Below, in pieces: positions 65-53,198 of a stretch of 64,000 nucleotides of DNA. Below the pieces are notes generated by a model. That model was not told where the DNA came from, did not search any database, and worked only from the letters and a program-made list of their open reading frames with translations. Made by a program: the position numbers and the translations under genes. The DNA is from Falsiruegeria mediterranea M17 (lineage in GTDB: Bacteria; Pseudomonadota; Alphaproteobacteria; Rhodobacterales; Rhodobacteraceae): positions 124,001 through 188,000 of the forward strand of contig NZ_ONZG01000006.1 in NCBI RefSeq assembly GCF_900302455.1, given 5' to 3'. Numbering within the stretch: position 1 is the stretch's first letter; each line of letters begins with the position of its first letter.

Positions 65-75
65 GATTGGCGGCA

Positions 76-1788
76 ATGAGATTCCCTTTGCGCCTTAAAT
101 TCTTTGTGTTTGCTGTTTTGCTTGCCGTCGGTCCCCTGGCCTTGGTCGGTCAGAATCTGACACGGCTCTCGCGGGATGAGCTCAAAAGCGCTGCCAACGA
201 AGATCTGACCACCGTGGCCGCGCAGTTGCGCACCGCGTTTGACAACACGTTCGAAGGGCGCTGGCTAACGCCGCTGATGGTCATTCGCAACGCAGTGGAC
301 AGCAACGAATTGGGGGTGCCGCAGAAAGTGTCCCTGCTGACATTGGGGTTGGAGGAGTTGCCCCAGGTCGTCGCTTTGCAACTGTCCGTCGAAGGTTCGG
401 ACCTGCCCATTTTAGTCGCGAACGAGGGGTTTGCCGGTAAACTCGCACAGGCCGGGTTGGACCCGGTCGGGACCCTTGCGACCTCTCCCGATCTGATCCG
501 TGCGTTTGCAGGCACGGGCCAGTTTGGCCGCCCGGTTGTGAACCGAGTGCCCGAGACCGGCGATTGGCTGGCAACTCTGGCGCTGCCGCTGACGACGCAG
601 ATCGCAGGGCGACAGGTGACGATGGCAGCGAAGATCGAGCTGTCGATCCTGGGGGATATGGTGCGCCGCCACCCCTTTGCGCAGCGCGGCGAGATTTCCA
701 TCGTCGATCAGGCTGGGCGGCGGGTGCTGGGTGACAATCCGGAACTTTTGATCCAGCGCCAAATCGTGGCCTCGACCATGCCGTTGATCGTGGCGGGTGC
801 GCGGGCCGATGCGCTGGAACCCTATGTGCGCCCCGACGGCATGGCGATGCTCGGGGCCTATGCCTTTCCCGACTGGTTCCAATGGGCGGTGATCACCGAG
901 TTGAGCGAAGACAACGCTTATGCGGTGGTCAATGCTATTACGCGACAGATCCTGATCGTTGGCCTGATCGGCTTTGCCATTGCCGCCGTGGGGGCCTTGA
1001 TCTTTGCCCGTCAGCTGACCCGGCCGATTCTGGCGATCGGGTCGGTGGCGGAAAAGGTGGGCGAGGGGGATTTTGCGGCGCGTGTCGAAAACGTCCGGGC
1101 ACGGGATGAGATCGGCGATCTGGCGCGCCGGATCAACCAGATGATCAGCCACCTGGGCGAGCGGATGGAACTGATGAAATTTGTCTCGCATGGCACCATG
1201 TCCGCGATCCAGAAGGCCGAGACAGAGGGGATGGAGCGCGGGGGCGAACGCCGCAAGATCTCTGTCATCTTTACGGATATCCGCGGCTATACGGAGTTTT
1301 CGGAACGGGTGCCGCCCGAAGTTGTGATCGAAGTGTTGAACCAATATTTCGATGTGCAGGCCGACATCGTGACCGAGTATGGTGGCGATGTGGACAAGTT
1401 CATTGGCGATGCACTTGTTGCGGTTTTCGAGGGCGAAGACATGGAATTGCGCGCAGTGGAGTGTGCGGTGGGGATCACGCAGGCCATGGCGCGGTTGCTC
1501 GAGCAGCATCCCGAACATAACCTGCATGTGGGCATAGGCGTGGCCTCGGGCGAGGTGGTGATGGGGGCCATGGGGGCACGGGACCGGATGGATTTTACCG
1601 TGCTTGGATCGACCGTGAACCTGTCCGCCCGGCTCTGTTCCAAGGCCGAGCCGGACCAGGTGCTGATAGATCAGGCCACCCGCGATGCAGCATTGGATCG
1701 AAACGGAGTGACCTTTGAGGCCCTCGATCCGATCCCGCTCAAGGGGTACGCAGACCCGGTGCCTGCCTTCTCTGCCAAACGCGCTTAA
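76..1788 (+). CDS. membrane-bound class III adenylate cyclase with HAMP domain
   Basis: Predicted to convert ATP to cAMP at the inner membrane in response to an extracytoplasmic signal. The product (570 aa) has an N-terminal membrane segment (about 6-25), a periplasmic sensor-like region (to about 285), a second membrane segment (291-311), a HAMP linker (312-364) and a class III cyclase domain (about 394-540). Metal-binding aspartates D401 (FTDI) and D445 (GDALVAVF), the purine-contacting K441, and the transition-state residues N515 and R519 (VNLSAR) are all present, so it should be active. The ATG at 76 is preferred because AGGA at 63-66 sits 9 nt upstream; an in-frame TTG at 67 would add three residues. 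A dispersed repeat follows the stop. A second cyclase lies at 51681-53198. The ligand is unknown. Confidence 0.9.
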   Translation: MRFPLRLKFFVFAVLLAVGPLALVGQNLTRLSRDELKSAANEDLTTVAAQLRTAFDNTFEGRWLTPLMVIRNAVDSNELGVPQKVSLLTLGLEELPQVVALQLSVEGSDLPILVANEGFAGKLAQAGLDPVGTLATSPDLIRAFAGTGQFGRPVVNRVPETGDWLATLALPLTTQIAGRQVTMAAKIELSILGDMVRRHPFAQRGEISIVDQAGRRVLGDNPELLIQRQIVASTMPLIVAGARADALEPYVRPDGMAMLGAYAFPDWFQWAVITELSEDNAYAVVNAITRQILIVGLIGFAIAAVGALIFARQLTRPILAIGSVAEKVGEGDFAARVENVRARDEIGDLARRINQMISHLGERMELMKFVSHGTMSAIQKAETEGMERGGERRKISVIFTDIRGYTEFSERVPPEVVIEVLNQYFDVQADIVTEYGGDVDKFIGDALVAVFEGEDMELRAVECAVGITQAMARLLEQHPEHNLHVGIGVASGEVVMGAMGARDRMDFTVLGSTVNLSARLCSKAEPDQVLIDQATRDAALDRNGVTFEALDPIPLKGYADPVPAFSAKRA

Positions 1789-2060: not shown

Positions 2061-2456
2061 TCAGGCGGCGTAGTTTATCCAAGCCCAGGTCATCGCCACA
2101 TAGGTCAGGTTGTGCAGGCATTGATCCAGTCCCACCGCACGCCAGAACGCGCCTTGTGAGGGGTTCAGTGCCTTTTTCTCGGAATAGCTGGCCTTGCCAA
2201 AGTCGATATTGAAATGAACGATCCACTCCAACGTCACAAGCACTGCAATGAAGGCAAGCGGTGCGCCCATGATCAGAAACACGATGATCGAGCCAACGAC
2301 ATGCACGCCTGCATGCATCGCTCGCCCCATGTGCCAGTACTGGCAACGCCCAGACAACATCTTTGGCGTCTGCAGATAGAAATCCGCAAACATATGCTTG
2401 ACCATCAGCAAGCTAAACAACAACAGCACAGAGCTGACCAGTTCAGGCAAAGCCAT
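2061..2456 (-). CDS. DUF3307-family small membrane protein
   Basis: A 131-aa protein with three to four hydrophobic segments (about 5-25, 50-90, 112-128). It has the DUF3307 pattern: an early acidic-aromatic motif (FADFYLQTPKM), then H-x5-H, an EWIVHFNIDFGK motif, and near the C-terminus a Gly-Leu-Asp-Gln and His-x2-Thr-Tyr motif. The family is found in the bacterial inner membrane and has no established function. It converges with the adenylate cyclase gene and is divergent from the large ABC-like gene at 2625, with which it may share a promoter region (2457-2624). The family call rests on motif memory only. Confidence 0.7.
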   Translation of the reverse strand: MALPELVSSVLLLFSLLMVKHMFADFYLQTPKMLSGRCQYWHMGRAMHAGVHVVGSIIVFLIMGAPLAFIAVLVTLEWIVHFNIDFGKASYSEKKALNPSQGAFWRAVGLDQCLHNLTYVAMTWAWINYAA

Positions 2457-2624: not shown

Positions 2625-5600
2625 GTGCAGCAATTCAGGAACAGTCCCATAGAACGTTCGATTTTTAGCTTTATCTGGAAGTATTCCAAACGCGACCAGC
2701 TAACCCTGCTGGCGGTGACGACAACCCTCTTCCCGTTGCTCTATCTGACACTGGAATTGCCCAAGCGGATCATCAATGACGCCATCGGTGCGGCAAGCTC
2801 CACGATTGATGTCTGGGGTTACACCTTTGATCAGGTCACCTTCCTGGGCATCCTGTGTATCGCCTTCCTGTTGTCGGTACTGGCGCACGGACTGATGAAG
2901 ATGCGCATCAACACCATGAAGGGCGTGCTCAGCGAACGGATGTTGCGCCGCTTCCGCTATCAGCTGATCGCCCGGATCATGCGCTTCCCGCAGCCGTATT
3001 TTGAACGCGTCAGCCAGGGCGAAATGGTGTCCATGGTCACCGCTGAAAGCGAACCGATGGGCGGCCTGATGGGCGACGCTATCAGCCAGCCTGTGCTGCA
3101 AGCGGGGCAGATGATCACGATCCTGTCGTTTCTGTTCCTGCAAAGTTTCTGGTTCGGATTGGCGGCCGTCGCCTTGATCCCCTTGCAAGCCTGGCTGATC
3201 CCCAAGCTACAAAAGCAGATCAACCTGCTGAACAAGAAACGCATCCAAGAGGTGCGCGTGCTGGCTGCTCAGATCGGCGAAAGCGCGGTGGGTGCCTCGA
3301 CGCTCAGGGCCAATGGCGGCTGGCGCTATCGTCGGGCGGCGATCACGGATCAGTTGGGGCGGCTGTTCGACATCCGTTTCGAGATCTACCAGAAGAAGTT
3401 CTTCATGAAGTTCCTCAACAACTTCATCTCGCAGCTGACCCCGTTTTTCTTCTTTTCAATCGGTGGCTATCTGGTGCTGCAAGGTGCGGTTTCTCTGGGC
3501 GCTCTGGTTGCCGCGCTGGCGGCCTACAAGGACCTCAGCAGCCCATGGAAGGAATTGCTGACCTACTACAATCAGACCCAGGACATGTCGATCCGATGGG
3601 AGGTGATCCTGGACCGCTTTGCTCCGCCCGGCATGGTGGATGAAAGCCTGTTTGAGGGAGAGCCGGAAAGCCGCCCCAAACTGGACGGAGACATCGAACT
3701 GGATCATGTCTCGGTCCGGGATGCGGATGGCAACCTTGTGTTGGACGATCTGACGGCAACTTTGCCCGGTGGTGGCACGATCGGTATTGCCGCCCCAAGC
3801 GAAGAGGACCGACGCGCCTTGGCCGAATTGCTCACGCGCGAGATCATGCCGGCAAATGGCTCGGTGCGGATCGCCGACAACAGCCTGTCCGAGTTGCATC
3901 AGGCAGTGATTGCGGCGCGGATCGGCCATGCCACCTCGCGTCCCGTCATGTTCCAGGGCAGCATTGGGGACAACGTCATGATGCCGATGCGGCACCAGCC
4001 GCAGAGTGACGGCACAGACGGCAAGGCCCATCGCGAGGCGGTTCGGGCGGGCAACAGCGATGACCCCTTTGATGCAGATTGGCTGGACCCGCAGCTTGCA
4101 GGGCTGGAGGACGAGGCTGCCCTGCGTGCCTGGTGGTTGCGTCTGGTCGAGGGGATGGGCTCGGGTGCTGCTCTGTTCCGGCGTGGCGCCGAACAGAAGT
4201 TCGACGCCGCCGATCACCCCGAACTGGCTGAACGGCTGATCGAACTGCGTCCCGTCGTGCAACAAGCGATGCAGGACGCTGGGCTTCAGGCACAGGCCTA
4301 TCTCTTTGACCCTGATGCCTACAACCCGGCGCTGCCGGTGGCAGAAAACCTGCTTTTTGCCACGCCAAGGGTAGCCTTTTCGCAAGATATGATCGCCTCG
4401 CAAAGTGAATTCCTTGCGCTGCTGCGTTCTCTGCATGTGGATGAAACCTTGGTCCGGCTGACCCAGGACGTGATCGACATGTTGCGCCAGATCTTTGGTC
4501 TGGACGGCACCGATCATCCGCTGTTCCGCAAACTGGGGCTAGAGGTCAAGACTTATGAAACCGCCGTCGAGCTGGTCGAAAAGACCCGCACCGATGGCGC
4601 AGCGGCACTGGATGATACCGAGCTTGCAAACCTGCTGGCCGTGCCCTTCCGCATCTCGGCCGATCAGATCGGACCCGCGTTTTCAGACGAGCTCAAGGCG
4701 CGGATTCTGGAAATCCGGTGCGGGCATTCGGCAGAACTGTTGCAGTCTTTGGATGGTGTGTTCACGCCGCTGTCGCTGGACAGCTACGCACCGGGCCTGA
4801 CAGTTCTGGAAAACGCTCTGTTCGGTAAAGTGAGCGAAGTAGGCGGCGCCAAATCGGACGAGTTGCGCAAGCTGATCGCGGATACCTTGGCCCAGCACGG
4901 CGCACAGGCGCAGGTGATCGAGTTGATCTATGACGTGCCAGTTGCCTTGGGGGGCACCAACCTGCCAGCCGTCTTTGCCGAGCCGTTGGCCTTTACCCGT
5001 GCCACGATCAAGAAGCCGGATGTGCTGATCCTGGACAAGGCGCTGGACAGTTATGACATGGACACGCAAGTCGCCGTTTACAGGAACCTGCGGGCCTTGT
5101 TGCCGGATACGACGGTGATCTATCTGAACGATCAATTCCAGTCGCCGGGTGTTTTTGACGTTTTCCTGGAGATCCAACAGGGCCGGATCGTCAGTGAAGA
5201 GGCCCAGACCGAGGCCGAAGAGGACAGTGTCGCCTCGGCCGATCTGGCGCGCAAACTGCGGGCCTTGGAGCAGACGCCGTTGTTCTCTGGTCTCGATCGC
5301 CGACAGCTGCGGCTGCTGGCCTTTGGTGCCCGCTGGTATGATGCAAAGGCGGGCGAGGTGGTGTTCCTGAAAGATGATGAGCCCACCGATGGTGCCTATA
5401 TGATGATCGACGGCGAGGCGGGGCTTTACCTGCCGCAGGACGAGGCCGAGGATCAACTGATCGCCAAAGTGGGTGCGGGTACCCTGGTGGGTGAGTTGGG
5501 CTTGATCCGCAAGGTTCCGCGCGCGCTGTCGATGGTGGCCGAAACCGACATCACCTGCCTGCGCATTGGGGAAGAAGAATTCCTGGCTGTGGTCGAAAAC

Positions 5601-5657
5601 GACGCGGCGACGGCGTTCAAGCTGTTGCAGGTGGTTGCTGGCTACGTTTCGAACTGA
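2625..5657 (+). CDS. ABC-exporter-like protein with degenerate ATPase and C-terminal cyclic-nucleotide-binding domain
   Basis: A 1010-aa protein. Residues 25-320 form a type I ABC exporter membrane domain with about six helices. The nucleotide-binding region is broken up. The Walker A position (382-395) reads GGGTIGIAAPSEED with no GKS/T. A Q-loop-like VMFQGSIGDN is at 442-451. About 320 residues of extra sequence follow, before LGGTN (775-779, in place of LSGGQ), a Walker B DVLILDKALD with Lys805 in place of the catalytic Glu, and YLNDQ (N835) where the H-loop His should be. Residues 875-1000 form a cNMP-binding domain that keeps the Gly-Glu (956-957) and Arg966 of the phosphate-binding cassette. 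It probably cannot hydrolyse ATP at a normal site and may sense cAMP. The GTG at 2625 is the only early start codon after an in-frame TGA at 2595; no clear ribosome binding site is seen. Confidence 0.8.
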   Translation: MQQFRNSPIERSIFSFIWKYSKRDQLTLLAVTTTLFPLLYLTLELPKRIINDAIGAASSTIDVWGYTFDQVTFLGILCIAFLLSVLAHGLMKMRINTMKGVLSERMLRRFRYQLIARIMRFPQPYFERVSQGEMVSMVTAESEPMGGLMGDAISQPVLQAGQMITILSFLFLQSFWFGLAAVALIPLQAWLIPKLQKQINLLNKKRIQEVRVLAAQIGESAVGASTLRANGGWRYRRAAITDQLGRLFDIRFEIYQKKFFMKFLNNFISQLTPFFFFSIGGYLVLQGAVSLGALVAALAAYKDLSSPWKELLTYYNQTQDMSIRWEVILDRFAPPGMVDESLFEGEPESRPKLDGDIELDHVSVRDADGNLVLDDLTATLPGGGTIGIAAPSEEDRRALAELLTREIMPANGSVRIADNSLSELHQAVIAARIGHATSRPVMFQGSIGDNVMMPMRHQPQSDGTDGKAHREAVRAGNSDDPFDADWLDPQLAGLEDEAALRAWWLRLVEGMGSGAALFRRGAEQKFDAADHPELAERLIELRPVVQQAMQDAGLQAQAYLFDPDAYNPALPVAENLLFATPRVAFSQDMIASQSEFLALLRSLHVDETLVRLTQDVIDMLRQIFGLDGTDHPLFRKLGLEVKTYETAVELVEKTRTDGAAALDDTELANLLAVPFRISADQIGPAFSDELKARILEIRCGHSAELLQSLDGVFTPLSLDSYAPGLTVLENALFGKVSEVGGAKSDELRKLIADTLAQHGAQAQVIELIYDVPVALGGTNLPAVFAEPLAFTRATIKKPDVLILDKALDSYDMDTQVAVYRNLRALLPDTTVIYLNDQFQSPGVFDVFLEIQQGRIVSEEAQTEAEEDSVASADLARKLRALEQTPLFSGLDRRQLRLLAFGARWYDAKAGEVVFLKDDEPTDGAYMMIDGEAGLYLPQDEAEDQLIAKVGAGTLVGELGLIRKVPRALSMVAETDITCLRIGEEEFLAVVENDAATAFKLLQVVAGYVSN

Positions 5658-51680: not shown

Positions 51681-53198
51681 ATGGTGGTTAAACAACCCAA
51701 TATTCTGACGCGATGCGTTGCAGCGATTGGCTTATCGATCCGCTCCAAACTGCTGATTGCATTCATGGGCATCACCGGTCTGCTTGTCGCCTTGTCGCTT
51801 TTTGGGCTCTACTCATTGCAGCAGTCTCACGCCCGTACCCAAGCATTGATCCGAGATCAGGAGCGCATCGAGTATTTCACCCAAATCCACGCATATGTCG
51901 GCGATCTTATCGCGATGACTGTCGGACAATACACACCCTATGGGCTCAACAATGCGGGGTCAGGGGGATTTTTTGGCGCCCCAGTTGATGCTCGTGTCGG
52001 CGACCTTCAATTGTTCGTTGCCAAGGGCGTTCGGCACTTCGGGCAAGCTGGCATGCAGGACGCGGACCTAGTTGCGCGCCTTCGGTTTGAGTTGGCGGTT
52101 CTCCGGCCACATGCCATCGAGGTGCAACGCCTGCGTCGCGAAGAAGGCAAGCCGGTGGCAGCCCCTTATGCCATGGAAAAACTGTTTGAACCGCTGCGCA
52201 GCATTCAGCGCGATGTTTATACCGTCGTCCAAGGCATCGAAAGAGACATGGCCGCCAAGGCCAGGTCGACGGCTGTGGCCTATCAGACCTCGCGCCAATT
52301 GGTGGTTACTTCGGCAATGGTCGCCGTAGGCATATCGCTCTTGCTGGGCTATGCCATCTCGTCCTCTCTGATCTGGCCGGTTCGGCGGATCGGACAAACG
52401 CTGGATACAGTTGCCAAAGGGGGCTTTGACGCCCGTGTCTCTGTTCCAAATCGGGATGAGCTCGGCGAGTTGGCTCACAATGTCAACGCCACGAGTGAGC
52501 AGCTTGGCGACCTCTACCAAGAAGTCGAAAGCCAGCGTGCAGAGTTGGCAAAAGAGCATGCCAAGTCTGAGGCGCTTTTGTACAACCTGCTGCCCGCCGA
52601 CATAGCAGCCCGCCTGAAGCTCGAACCGGACAGGACAATCGCCGATAGCCTCCCCAGGGTGGCGATCCTGTTTGCCGACATCGTGGATTTCACGCCCAGG
52701 GCCGTTTCATTGCCGCCCGAGGATGTCGTGGGTTTTCTGAACAAGATATTCAGTGCCTTTGATGAGCTGGCGGAAAAACACGGGCTGGAAAAGGTCAAGA
52801 CCATCGGGGACGCCTATATGGTTGCCGCCGGGATGCCGTCCCCAGTCGGGGACCCGGTCCATCGCGTGGCAGAGATGGCCCTGGACATGCAACGGGTCGT
52901 GATCGAGATGTCTTCGGAGTTTCCCGAAGGCCTTGAGGTTCGCATCGGGCTTCACGCAGGTCCGGCCGTGGCTGGTGTTATCGGGAGCCGAAAGCTGTTC
53001 TACGACGTTTGGGGCGAGACGGTGAATACAGCCTCTAGAATGGAAAGCCTCGGGGAACCGGGCCGCATTCAAGTCACTGCAGAGGTAAAGGCAGAGCTGG
53101 AACCGGGGTTCCAATTTGTTCCACGCGGGCTGGTCGACGTCAAAGGTATTGGCGAGGTGGAGACCTGGTGGTTGTCTGGAAAGCAGGCTGCAGCTTAG
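51681..53198 (+). CDS. membrane-bound class III adenylate cyclase with HAMP domain (second copy)
   Basis: 505 aa. TM1 at about 20-43, an extracytoplasmic helical sensor (45-205), TM2 at 207-230, HAMP 232-285, a coiled signalling helix ending LLYNLLPADIAARLK, and a cyclase domain (326-490). Metal aspartates D333 and D377, purine-contacting K373 and D442 (FYDVWGE), and N449/R453 are all present, so it should make cAMP. The Lys-Asp pair argues against guanylate cyclase. The ATG at 51681 follows AGGA by 9 nt; longer readings contain no sensible signal. The sensor is four-helix-bundle-like and differs from the first cyclase. Confidence 0.9.
   Translation: MVVKQPNILTRCVAAIGLSIRSKLLIAFMGITGLLVALSLFGLYSLQQSHARTQALIRDQERIEYFTQIHAYVGDLIAMTVGQYTPYGLNNAGSGGFFGAPVDARVGDLQLFVAKGVRHFGQAGMQDADLVARLRFELAVLRPHAIEVQRLRREEGKPVAAPYAMEKLFEPLRSIQRDVYTVVQGIERDMAAKARSTAVAYQTSRQLVVTSAMVAVGISLLLGYAISSSLIWPVRRIGQTLDTVAKGGFDARVSVPNRDELGELAHNVNATSEQLGDLYQEVESQRAELAKEHAKSEALLYNLLPADIAARLKLEPDRTIADSLPRVAILFADIVDFTPRAVSLPPEDVVGFLNKIFSAFDELAEKHGLEKVKTIGDAYMVAAGMPSPVGDPVHRVAEMALDMQRVVIEMSSEFPEGLEVRIGLHAGPAVAGVIGSRKLFYDVWGETVNTASRMESLGEPGRIQVTAEVKAELEPGFQFVPRGLVDVKGIGEVETWWLSGKQAAA

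Follow-up and report, generated by a model that had tools for sequence, protein, structure and literature searches.

An ABC-exporter homologue with degenerate ATPase motifs and a cyclic-nucleotide-binding domain: a probable cyclic-nucleotide-controlled membrane protein of Falsiruegeria mediterranea and its alphaproteobacterial relatives

What does a protein built like an ATP-binding cassette (ABC) exporter do once the motifs for ATP hydrolysis are lost and a cyclic-nucleotide (cNMP)-binding domain forms its tail? This question is raised by the gene at positions 2625–5657 of the window, a stretch of 64,000 nucleotides from the genome of Falsiruegeria mediterranea M17 (contig NZ_ONZG01000006.1). 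The gene product is designated P0001, with residues counted from the GTG at 2625, and the genome G000, the window lying on G000:C24. From sequence comparison and structure prediction, which document its fold, motif loss, pocket retention, internal repeats and gene linkage, P0001 is probably an ATPase-dead membrane protein controlled by cyclic nucleotides on an ABC-exporter scaffold.

Homology to ABC exporters, asserted in a first-pass annotation of this DNA, is borne out by both domain searches and the predicted structure. Pfam recognises ABC_membrane at residues 60–298 (E 4.8e-18) and cNMP_binding at residues 908–993 (E 1.9e-14), whereas the ABC_tran match does not reach its threshold (E 0.13; 13.3 bits versus 25). 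The AlphaFold2 model (66 aligned sequences; one alignment, of P0001 with 65 of the 80 genome-contig loci) has a mean pLDDT of 85.6 and a pTM of 0.75. In VIA-align comparisons, it matches PCAT1 (8vox_A; Z 25.6, rmsd 4.4, 430 residues) and the nucleotide-binding domain (NBD) of ComA (3vx4_A; Z 25.2, rmsd 2.6, 231 residues), and the exporter fold is thus kept domain by domain. The type IV ABC exporters PCAT1, TmrAB, TM287/288, and MsbA share the transmembrane domain (TMD) and NBD fold with the model over 411–448 residues (Z around 24–26), and a profile of the family NBD matches canonical NBDs with an E value of 1.4e-45. P0001 therefore has the six-helix TMD fold and the NBD fold of a type IV (ABCB-like) exporter; what it lacks is the Walker A GxxxxGK(S/T), the LSGGQ signature, the Walker B Glu, and the H-loop His.

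These motifs were read off an alignment of 97 family proteins, from which repeated loci had been removed and in which same-genus copies remain; counts were made on 96 of them, the truncated L121 being left out. Sequence identity and gene order served to tell 48 orthologues of the window gene apart from its paralogues. The Walker A site was correctly described at first as lacking GK(S/T): P-loop Lys occurs in none of the 48 orthologues, and the last Gly of the glycine-rich loop is replaced by Asp or Glu in every one, within a SEEDRR-type sequence. Since Arg also occupies the Lys site in all 48, the replacement of the P-loop is itself conserved. The exchange of the catalytic Walker B Glu for Lys805 was likewise confirmed, with Glu present in 0/48 orthologues. 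The signature, however, had been placed at LGGTN (residues 775–779), which forms part of the (V/I)(G/A)G(S/A)R stretch immediately preceding it; the residues aligned with the signature are LPAVFAE, and the signature is therefore more degraded than was first stated. The loss of the H-loop His stands, albeit at Asp836 rather than Asn835; His fills this column in no orthologue, and four carry a His elsewhere in 833–838. That every ATPase motif is broken holds for Walker A, the signature, the Walker B Glu, and the H-loop, but not for the Walker B Asp (D804), which 35 of the 48 orthologues retain, nor for the D-loop D811. None of the 48 has the broken motifs in an intact state.

Across the 96 family proteins, Walker A contains Lys in 38, Ser/Thr in 21, and both in 10, and Walker B contains Asp in 31, Glu in 49, and both in nine. 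The H-loop His is found in 26 and the signature Gly pair in none. Lys, Ser/Thr, Asp, and Glu occur together in only five proteins, all of the Thalassospira type, and no protein combines these four with the H-loop His. The overall fold, together with the GSGKE and LSAAQRQK of the distant relative L056, would suit an exporter that ATP still drives despite strong divergence of its motifs; such a pump is nevertheless very unlikely, given the absence of both the P-loop Lys and the Walker B Glu from all 48 orthologues and an NBD less conserved than the TMD at larger distances, unlike that of the single exporter used as control.

ATP might instead still bind P0001 without being hydrolysed, acting as glue or co-ligand as it does in CFTR and SUR, while the cyclic nucleotide tunes the protein. 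The kept NBD fold (TAP1 ATPase domain 4k8o, Z 24.8), the frequent retention of D804, the invariant Arg at the Lys site, and the GK(S/T) plus DE of some relatives are consistent with this possibility, which is rated as unlikely: the SEEDRR-type loop would put negative charge at the place of the phosphates, and the signature Gly pair is missing from all 96 family proteins.

The cNMP domain presents the opposite picture, its catalytic neighbours having been lost and its pocket kept. As initially described, it carries Gly956, Glu957, and Arg966 within the phosphate-binding cassette, and all three are invariant in the 48 orthologues. Among 99 cNMP open reading frames (ORFs) or domains of the family (including 10 repeats of a locus), Gly and Arg are universal and Glu is present in 89, with Asp in the other 10; Asp also replaces this Glu in 11/11 other fused Rhodobacterales members. 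RTAT-type cassettes occur in cGMP-binding kinases. Most separate cNMP proteins of the family have a cassette of this type, and cGMP is thus a possible ligand in these relatives. HetC of Nostoc PCC 7120 also joins an ABC exporter to a cNMP-binding domain, which it needs for function; it differs in that the domain is N-terminal, that a C39 peptidase is present, and that E970, an ATPase residue, is essential (PMC10986499, available parts of the report). According to the same parts, the N-terminal portion of HetC bound ppGpp, whereas cAMP gave no significant protection (PMC10986499). By analogy with HetC, the cNMP domain of P0001 may bind another ligand.

Conservation was compared over five regions (TMD, N-terminal NBD, insert, C-terminal NBD, and cNMP domain) against orthologues from five genomes. 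The ratio of nonsynonymous to synonymous substitution rates (dN/dS) lay between 0.008 and 0.34 for all but one of the 25 region pairs, the exception being 0.62, with dS near saturation in several; together with the conserved P-loop replacements, this indicates that the motif pattern is more than chance. A decaying pseudogene, for which the lost catalytic motifs might be taken as a sign, can be given hardly any credence in view of these ratios, the invariant cNMP pocket, and open frames of 982–1041 codons in all 48 orthologues. Identity to the window genome, in the above order of regions, was 0.97/0.88/0.91/0.98/0.96 for G001, 0.88/0.73/0.68/0.78/0.83 for G008, 0.86/0.73/0.70/0.75/0.93 for G034, 0.81/0.61/0.51/0.50/0.78 for G030, and 0.63/0.42/0.40/0.44/0.48 for G011. 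The control, one canonical exporter in four genomes (its G030 row being void through an antisense frame), gave TMD/NBD identities of 0.97/0.93 (G001), 0.83/0.82 (G008), 0.83/0.84 (G034), and 0.58/0.70 (G011). From G008 outward, the family TMD is better kept than the NBD, a pattern that the control does not exhibit.

Four relatives (L003, which lies in the window genome itself, L047, L048, and L049) consist of the TMD only, and no NBD-like ORF was found in their fetched loci. They share 27–40 of 48 TMD residues conserved in the family (positions chosen for that conservation), compared with 9–12 in four canonical exporters, and in a tree in which several of these rows form long branches, they join the family opposite 12 canonical exporters with a branch support of 100/100. 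Their existence indicates that the TMD can apparently be kept without an ATPase.

The NBD of P0001 is split by an insert, first reported as about 320 extra residues with two more ENI-like motifs. The motifs are real, whereas the length is nearer 290 residues. Profile comparison matches the two insert repeats with each other (probability 98.7, E 1.6e-16, 83 columns) and with the segment between Q-loop and signature in an alignment of 17 ordinary exporters (middle repeat, probability 86, E 5e-6; third repeat, probability 97.5; TMD segments as controls, at most 0.3); as the third repeat runs into the family's own signature flank, only the middle one is an independent test against ordinary exporters. 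The first and third repeats match with a probability of 67 (E 5e-5), the comparison of the first with the second merely re-finding the overlap between these segments. The most plausible reading of the insert is that it holds two additional copies of the Q-loop/alpha-helical segment. Modelled alone, it reaches a pLDDT of 90.9, and VIA-align returns weak rows only (Z <4); several of these fall just after the Q-loop (MsbA 426–497, PCAT1 569–640, BmrC 420–492, CFTR 495–564), which agrees with the profile comparison, albeit weakly when taken alone. Two other identities for the insert were considered and rejected. The earlier proposal of two decayed nucleotide-binding halves is not supported, as neither a P-loop nor a Walker B motif was seen there, and a separate known domain is disfavoured by these low Z scores and by a Foldseek search of the insert alone that gave no match at E 0.001.

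Compared with type IV exporters, P0001 thus differs in the lost P-loop, signature, Walker B Glu, and H-loop His, in the two extra Q-loop/alpha segments, in the cNMP domain, and in a TMD better conserved than the NBD at larger distances. CFTR and SUR resemble it, as read here, in using the ABC fold as a channel or regulator rather than a pump, and SUR2A (7vlu) is among the structural matches of the model; both are eukaryotic, ATP-controlled, single-chain proteins and are not known to have a cNMP-binding domain of this kind. The exporter MsRv1273c/72c has likewise lost catalytic residues at a nucleotide-binding site (PMC12038006, available parts of the report); exporters of this type keep one working site, while a homodimer of P0001 would have none. 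P0001 might also be one half, the degenerate one, of an exporter that works as a heterodimer with a single functional ATP site contributed by the partner, as in TM287/288 or BmrCD, and degenerate-site heterodimers (3qf4 and 5mkk) do appear among its structural matches. This is quite improbable: the partner's site would need the signature that P0001 has lost, and no canonical half-exporter was found in the scanned neighbourhoods, a result that bears on a linked partner and not on an unlinked one. The seven neighbouring ORFs whose alignments to six canonical exporters exceed 250 residues all fall in one importer-ATPase cluster, and the six scanned carry oligo_HPY.

The first-pass suggestion of a cAMP-sensing membrane protein, channel, or scaffold rather than a pump is supported in part: cNMP sensing by a membrane protein that is not a pump is the best reading, because the catalytic residues are lost and the cNMP pocket is kept. 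Two copies of P0001 would pair as a homodimer, and a class III cyclase, for example that at the left end of the window, would make cAMP (possibly cGMP), which would bind the C-terminal cNMP domain. The dead NBDs might then pass the movement on to the TMD, which would open, close, or recruit partners without ATP hydrolysis. The ancestral task may have been in cell-surface glycan assembly or export, as a gated flippase, channel, or scaffold, judging from the neighbourhoods of relatives; any particular output of this kind (envelope-glycan flippase, channel, or scaffold) is rated as less likely than the receptor role overall.

Several observations weigh against this reading. When the whole chain is superposed on single exporters with Foldseek, the fit is poor (PCAT1: TM 0.36/0.60, rmsd 13.5). 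The five Thalassospira-type distant relatives retain GK(S/T) and DE, so that the family shows motif loss in degrees, and Pfam ABC_tran still recognises the NBD of L056 (E 3.8e-16); given these retained ATP-site features, some members may yet bind ATP. At G001 the C-terminal NBD is as conserved as the TMD, and the control NBD exceeds its TMD only against G034 (by 0.01) and G011; the contrast between TMD and NBD is clear only at larger distances. As for the ligand, the window genome contains 27 class III cyclase matches, so that the presence of one nearby counts for little; of the 48 orthologue loci, 13 have a homologue of this cyclase at a distance of up to about 1.5 kb, and the opposite-strand DUF3307 gene separates the cyclase from the window gene. 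No gene for a glycosyltransferase was noted next to the window gene itself.

Table 1. Positions of the window gene, its sequence features, its upstream neighbours, and the TMD-only relatives (window positions unless a locus is named)
Feature	Position	Strand	Remarks
Class III adenylate/guanylate cyclase with HAMP	67–1788	+	weak, below-cut-off dCache match; candidate ligand source
DUF3307 gene, divergent upstream neighbour	2061–2456	-	same arrangement in 44/48 orthologue loci
Pseudo-ABC exporter with C-terminal cNMP domain, open frame	2625–5657	+	1010 aa from GTG; 1002 aa from ATA 2649
AGGA, Shine-Dalgarno-like	2637–2640	+	GG at -11/-10 from ATA; position conserved across orthologues
Probable start codon ATA	2649–2651	+	ATA or ATC in 46/48 orthologues
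TMD, residues 9–340	2649–3644	+	
Degenerate NBD, N-terminal part, residues 350–462	3672–4010	+	
Walker A site, residues 388–399	3786–3821	+	reads IAAPSEEDRRAL; Arg396 at Lys site in 48/48 orthologues
Insert, residues 463–750, best read as two extra copies of Q-loop/alpha-helical segment	4011–4874	+	
Second ENI-like motif, residues 567–581	4323–4367	+	N575 invariant in 48/48 orthologues
Third ENI-like motif, residues 722–736	4788–4832	+	N730 invariant in 48/48 orthologues
Signature-equivalent (LSGGQ site) LPAVFAE, residues 780–786	4962–4982	+	
Walker B and D-loop, residues 800–811, LILDKALDSYD	5022–5057	+	D804 kept, K805 for catalytic Glu, D811 kept
H-loop His column, Asp836	5130–5132	+	
cNMP-binding domain, residues 872–1008	5238–5648	+	
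Phosphate-binding cassette GELGLIRKVPRALS, residues 956–969	5490–5531	+	
TMD-only relative L003	L003:1477–2427		in window genome
TMD-only relative L047	L047:5056–6294		
TMD-only relative L048	L048:4935–5993		
TMD-only relative L049	L049:4766–6007		

The gene was at first read from the GTG at 2625; the open frame is upheld, whereas its start probably lies at the ATA at 2649. The first Met of the family aligns with Ile9 of P0001, and the GTG is not conserved in three same-genus orthologues. In the 48 orthologues, the Ile9 codon is ATA in 27, ATC in 19, and ATG in two, compared with ATG in all 11 other fused Rhodobacterales members (among them L013 and L054, both outside the two groups in the tree) and, in 85 other family loci, ATG 74, CTG 4, CTT 3, GTG 2, TTG 1, and GAT 1. 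ATA makes up only 73 of 2595 Ile codons (2.8%) in the same genes, an excess at the start position with P 3e-30 if shared ancestry is ignored. Between the in-frame upstream stop and the ATA/ATC codon, 23 of the 46 non-ATG loci contain no ATG, GTG, or TTG (16 no CTG either), and the other 23 do contain an upstream canonical start codon; the next canonical codon downstream is at least 17 codons away in 41 of the 46. The putative Shine-Dalgarno sequence has G at -11 in 85% and at -10 in 98% of the non-ATG loci. The record of Ruegeria sp. TM1040 annotates the orthologue from a codon 17 codons downstream of the ATA/ATC position.

Conserved AUA starts that lower translation have been reported in Staphylococcus aureus, where infC and ccpN, like the window gene, have a conserved AUA start behind an extended Shine-Dalgarno sequence (PMC13009471, available parts of the report). 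The non-AUG starts there gave around 10% of the reporter expression obtained with AUG, ccpN reaching up to 30% in rich medium (PMC13009471); the genes concerned are other genes of a Firmicute, whereas the putative AUA/AUC start here stands on an alphaproteobacterial gene for a putative membrane receptor. Judging by the conserved ATA/ATC start, expression in this branch would be low and the window-type protein scarce. The start offers a further testable case of start-codon-limited translation, which annotation can miss.

Family members were matched (E 1e-60) in 97 of 289 sampled alphaproteobacterial genomes, around one third, and in 16 of 200 genomes of the phylum, 15 of these 16 being alphaproteobacterial. 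A literature search, mostly of openly accessible literature, found no description of such a family, which is apparently large and undescribed; annotated plasmid records that carry members mostly label them as part of an ABC transporter. A wider proposal, held tentatively and judged to fall slightly short of probable, is that an exporter became a cyclic-nucleotide-gated switch across the class: the ATP sites would have died, the coupling segment would have been copied twice, an adjacent sensor would have been fused in several lineages, the NBD would have been dropped in some, and the window branch would have become scarce through its ATA/ATC start, a repurposing like that of CFTR with cNMP in place of ATP. 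If members are indeed cNMP-controlled and ATPase-dead, transporter counts and annotations in Alphaproteobacteria need revision, and the gradation within the family, in which some members have partly intact motifs, others dead NBDs, and others only the TMD, would offer a means of testing how a signalling protein arises from an ABC pump.

Gene neighbourhoods were compared over 80 loci, chosen as those that best matched a split-type query and not as an even sample; neighbouring genes were picked mechanically by taking the longest frames, which led to antisense errors, noticed in L129 and L134. The cNMP domain is encoded by an adjacent gene in 68 loci, fused in seven, beyond the contig end in three, and not found in two. 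A glycosyltransferase gene cluster lies nearby in 63 of the 80 (nine of 10 random cluster members have a glycosyltransferase Pfam match), a cluster of importer-type (oligo_HPY) ATPases in 32, and a His phosphatase cluster in 25. Class III cyclase genes are nearby in 10 loci, six of which are related (Breoghania, two Roseibium, Stappia, and two metagenome-assembled genomes: L127, L132, L134, L135, L129, and L131); a metallo-beta-lactamase gene stands between the family gene and the cyclase in L127, L131, and L132, where the picks resolve the order. In five Thalassospira-type loci, an Apyc1-like metallo-beta-lactamase gene lies directly upstream of the fused family gene (L112:4338–5174, with the Pfam match PF23023 shown for L112), which suggests a role as a cellular cyclic-nucleotide phosphodiesterase. 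The divergent DUF3307 gene is a possible functional partner of the window gene.

A cyclase paired with a membrane protein bearing a cNMP domain also recalls a Pycsar-like antiphage effector, and at the domain level PADLOC models of PycC and of Pycsar effectors do match two cyclases and, in L056, the separate cNMP ORF. P0001 itself has no PADLOC match at E 0.001, and L056 matches only mad3, over the end of its NBD; the conserved neighbours are the divergent DUF3307 gene (orthologues) and the glycosyltransferase cluster (relatives), and in no phage record does coverage of the family query reach 80%, although 110 records match parts of it. Such an effector is therefore most unlikely.

Some further features of the window and of related loci may be recorded. 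A second class III cyclase domain lies at approximately 52650–53177 of the window (G000:C24:176650–177177). Directly upstream of the first cyclase is a gene for a 1633-aa protein with PKD repeats (L046:1124–6025, on G000:C24), which ends just inside the left edge of the window; related ORFs precede the cyclase in L041 and L042. In L048, a cyclase gene with an HNOBA match is situated around 0.5 kb downstream of the TMD-only gene. The window genome encodes a second paralogue, 54% identical (G000:C11:269904–272909; L002 and L045), followed by a gene that clusters with the CPBP/Rce1-like protease gene of L050, with the same annotation in Ruegeria AD91A (L055). In Sinorhizobium meliloti ml66 (CP140944), the family ORF (L053:12423–14711) is only 762 aa long and possibly frameshifted; in S. 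meliloti ml46 (CP140883), a gene of 2712 nt is annotated at the corresponding position.

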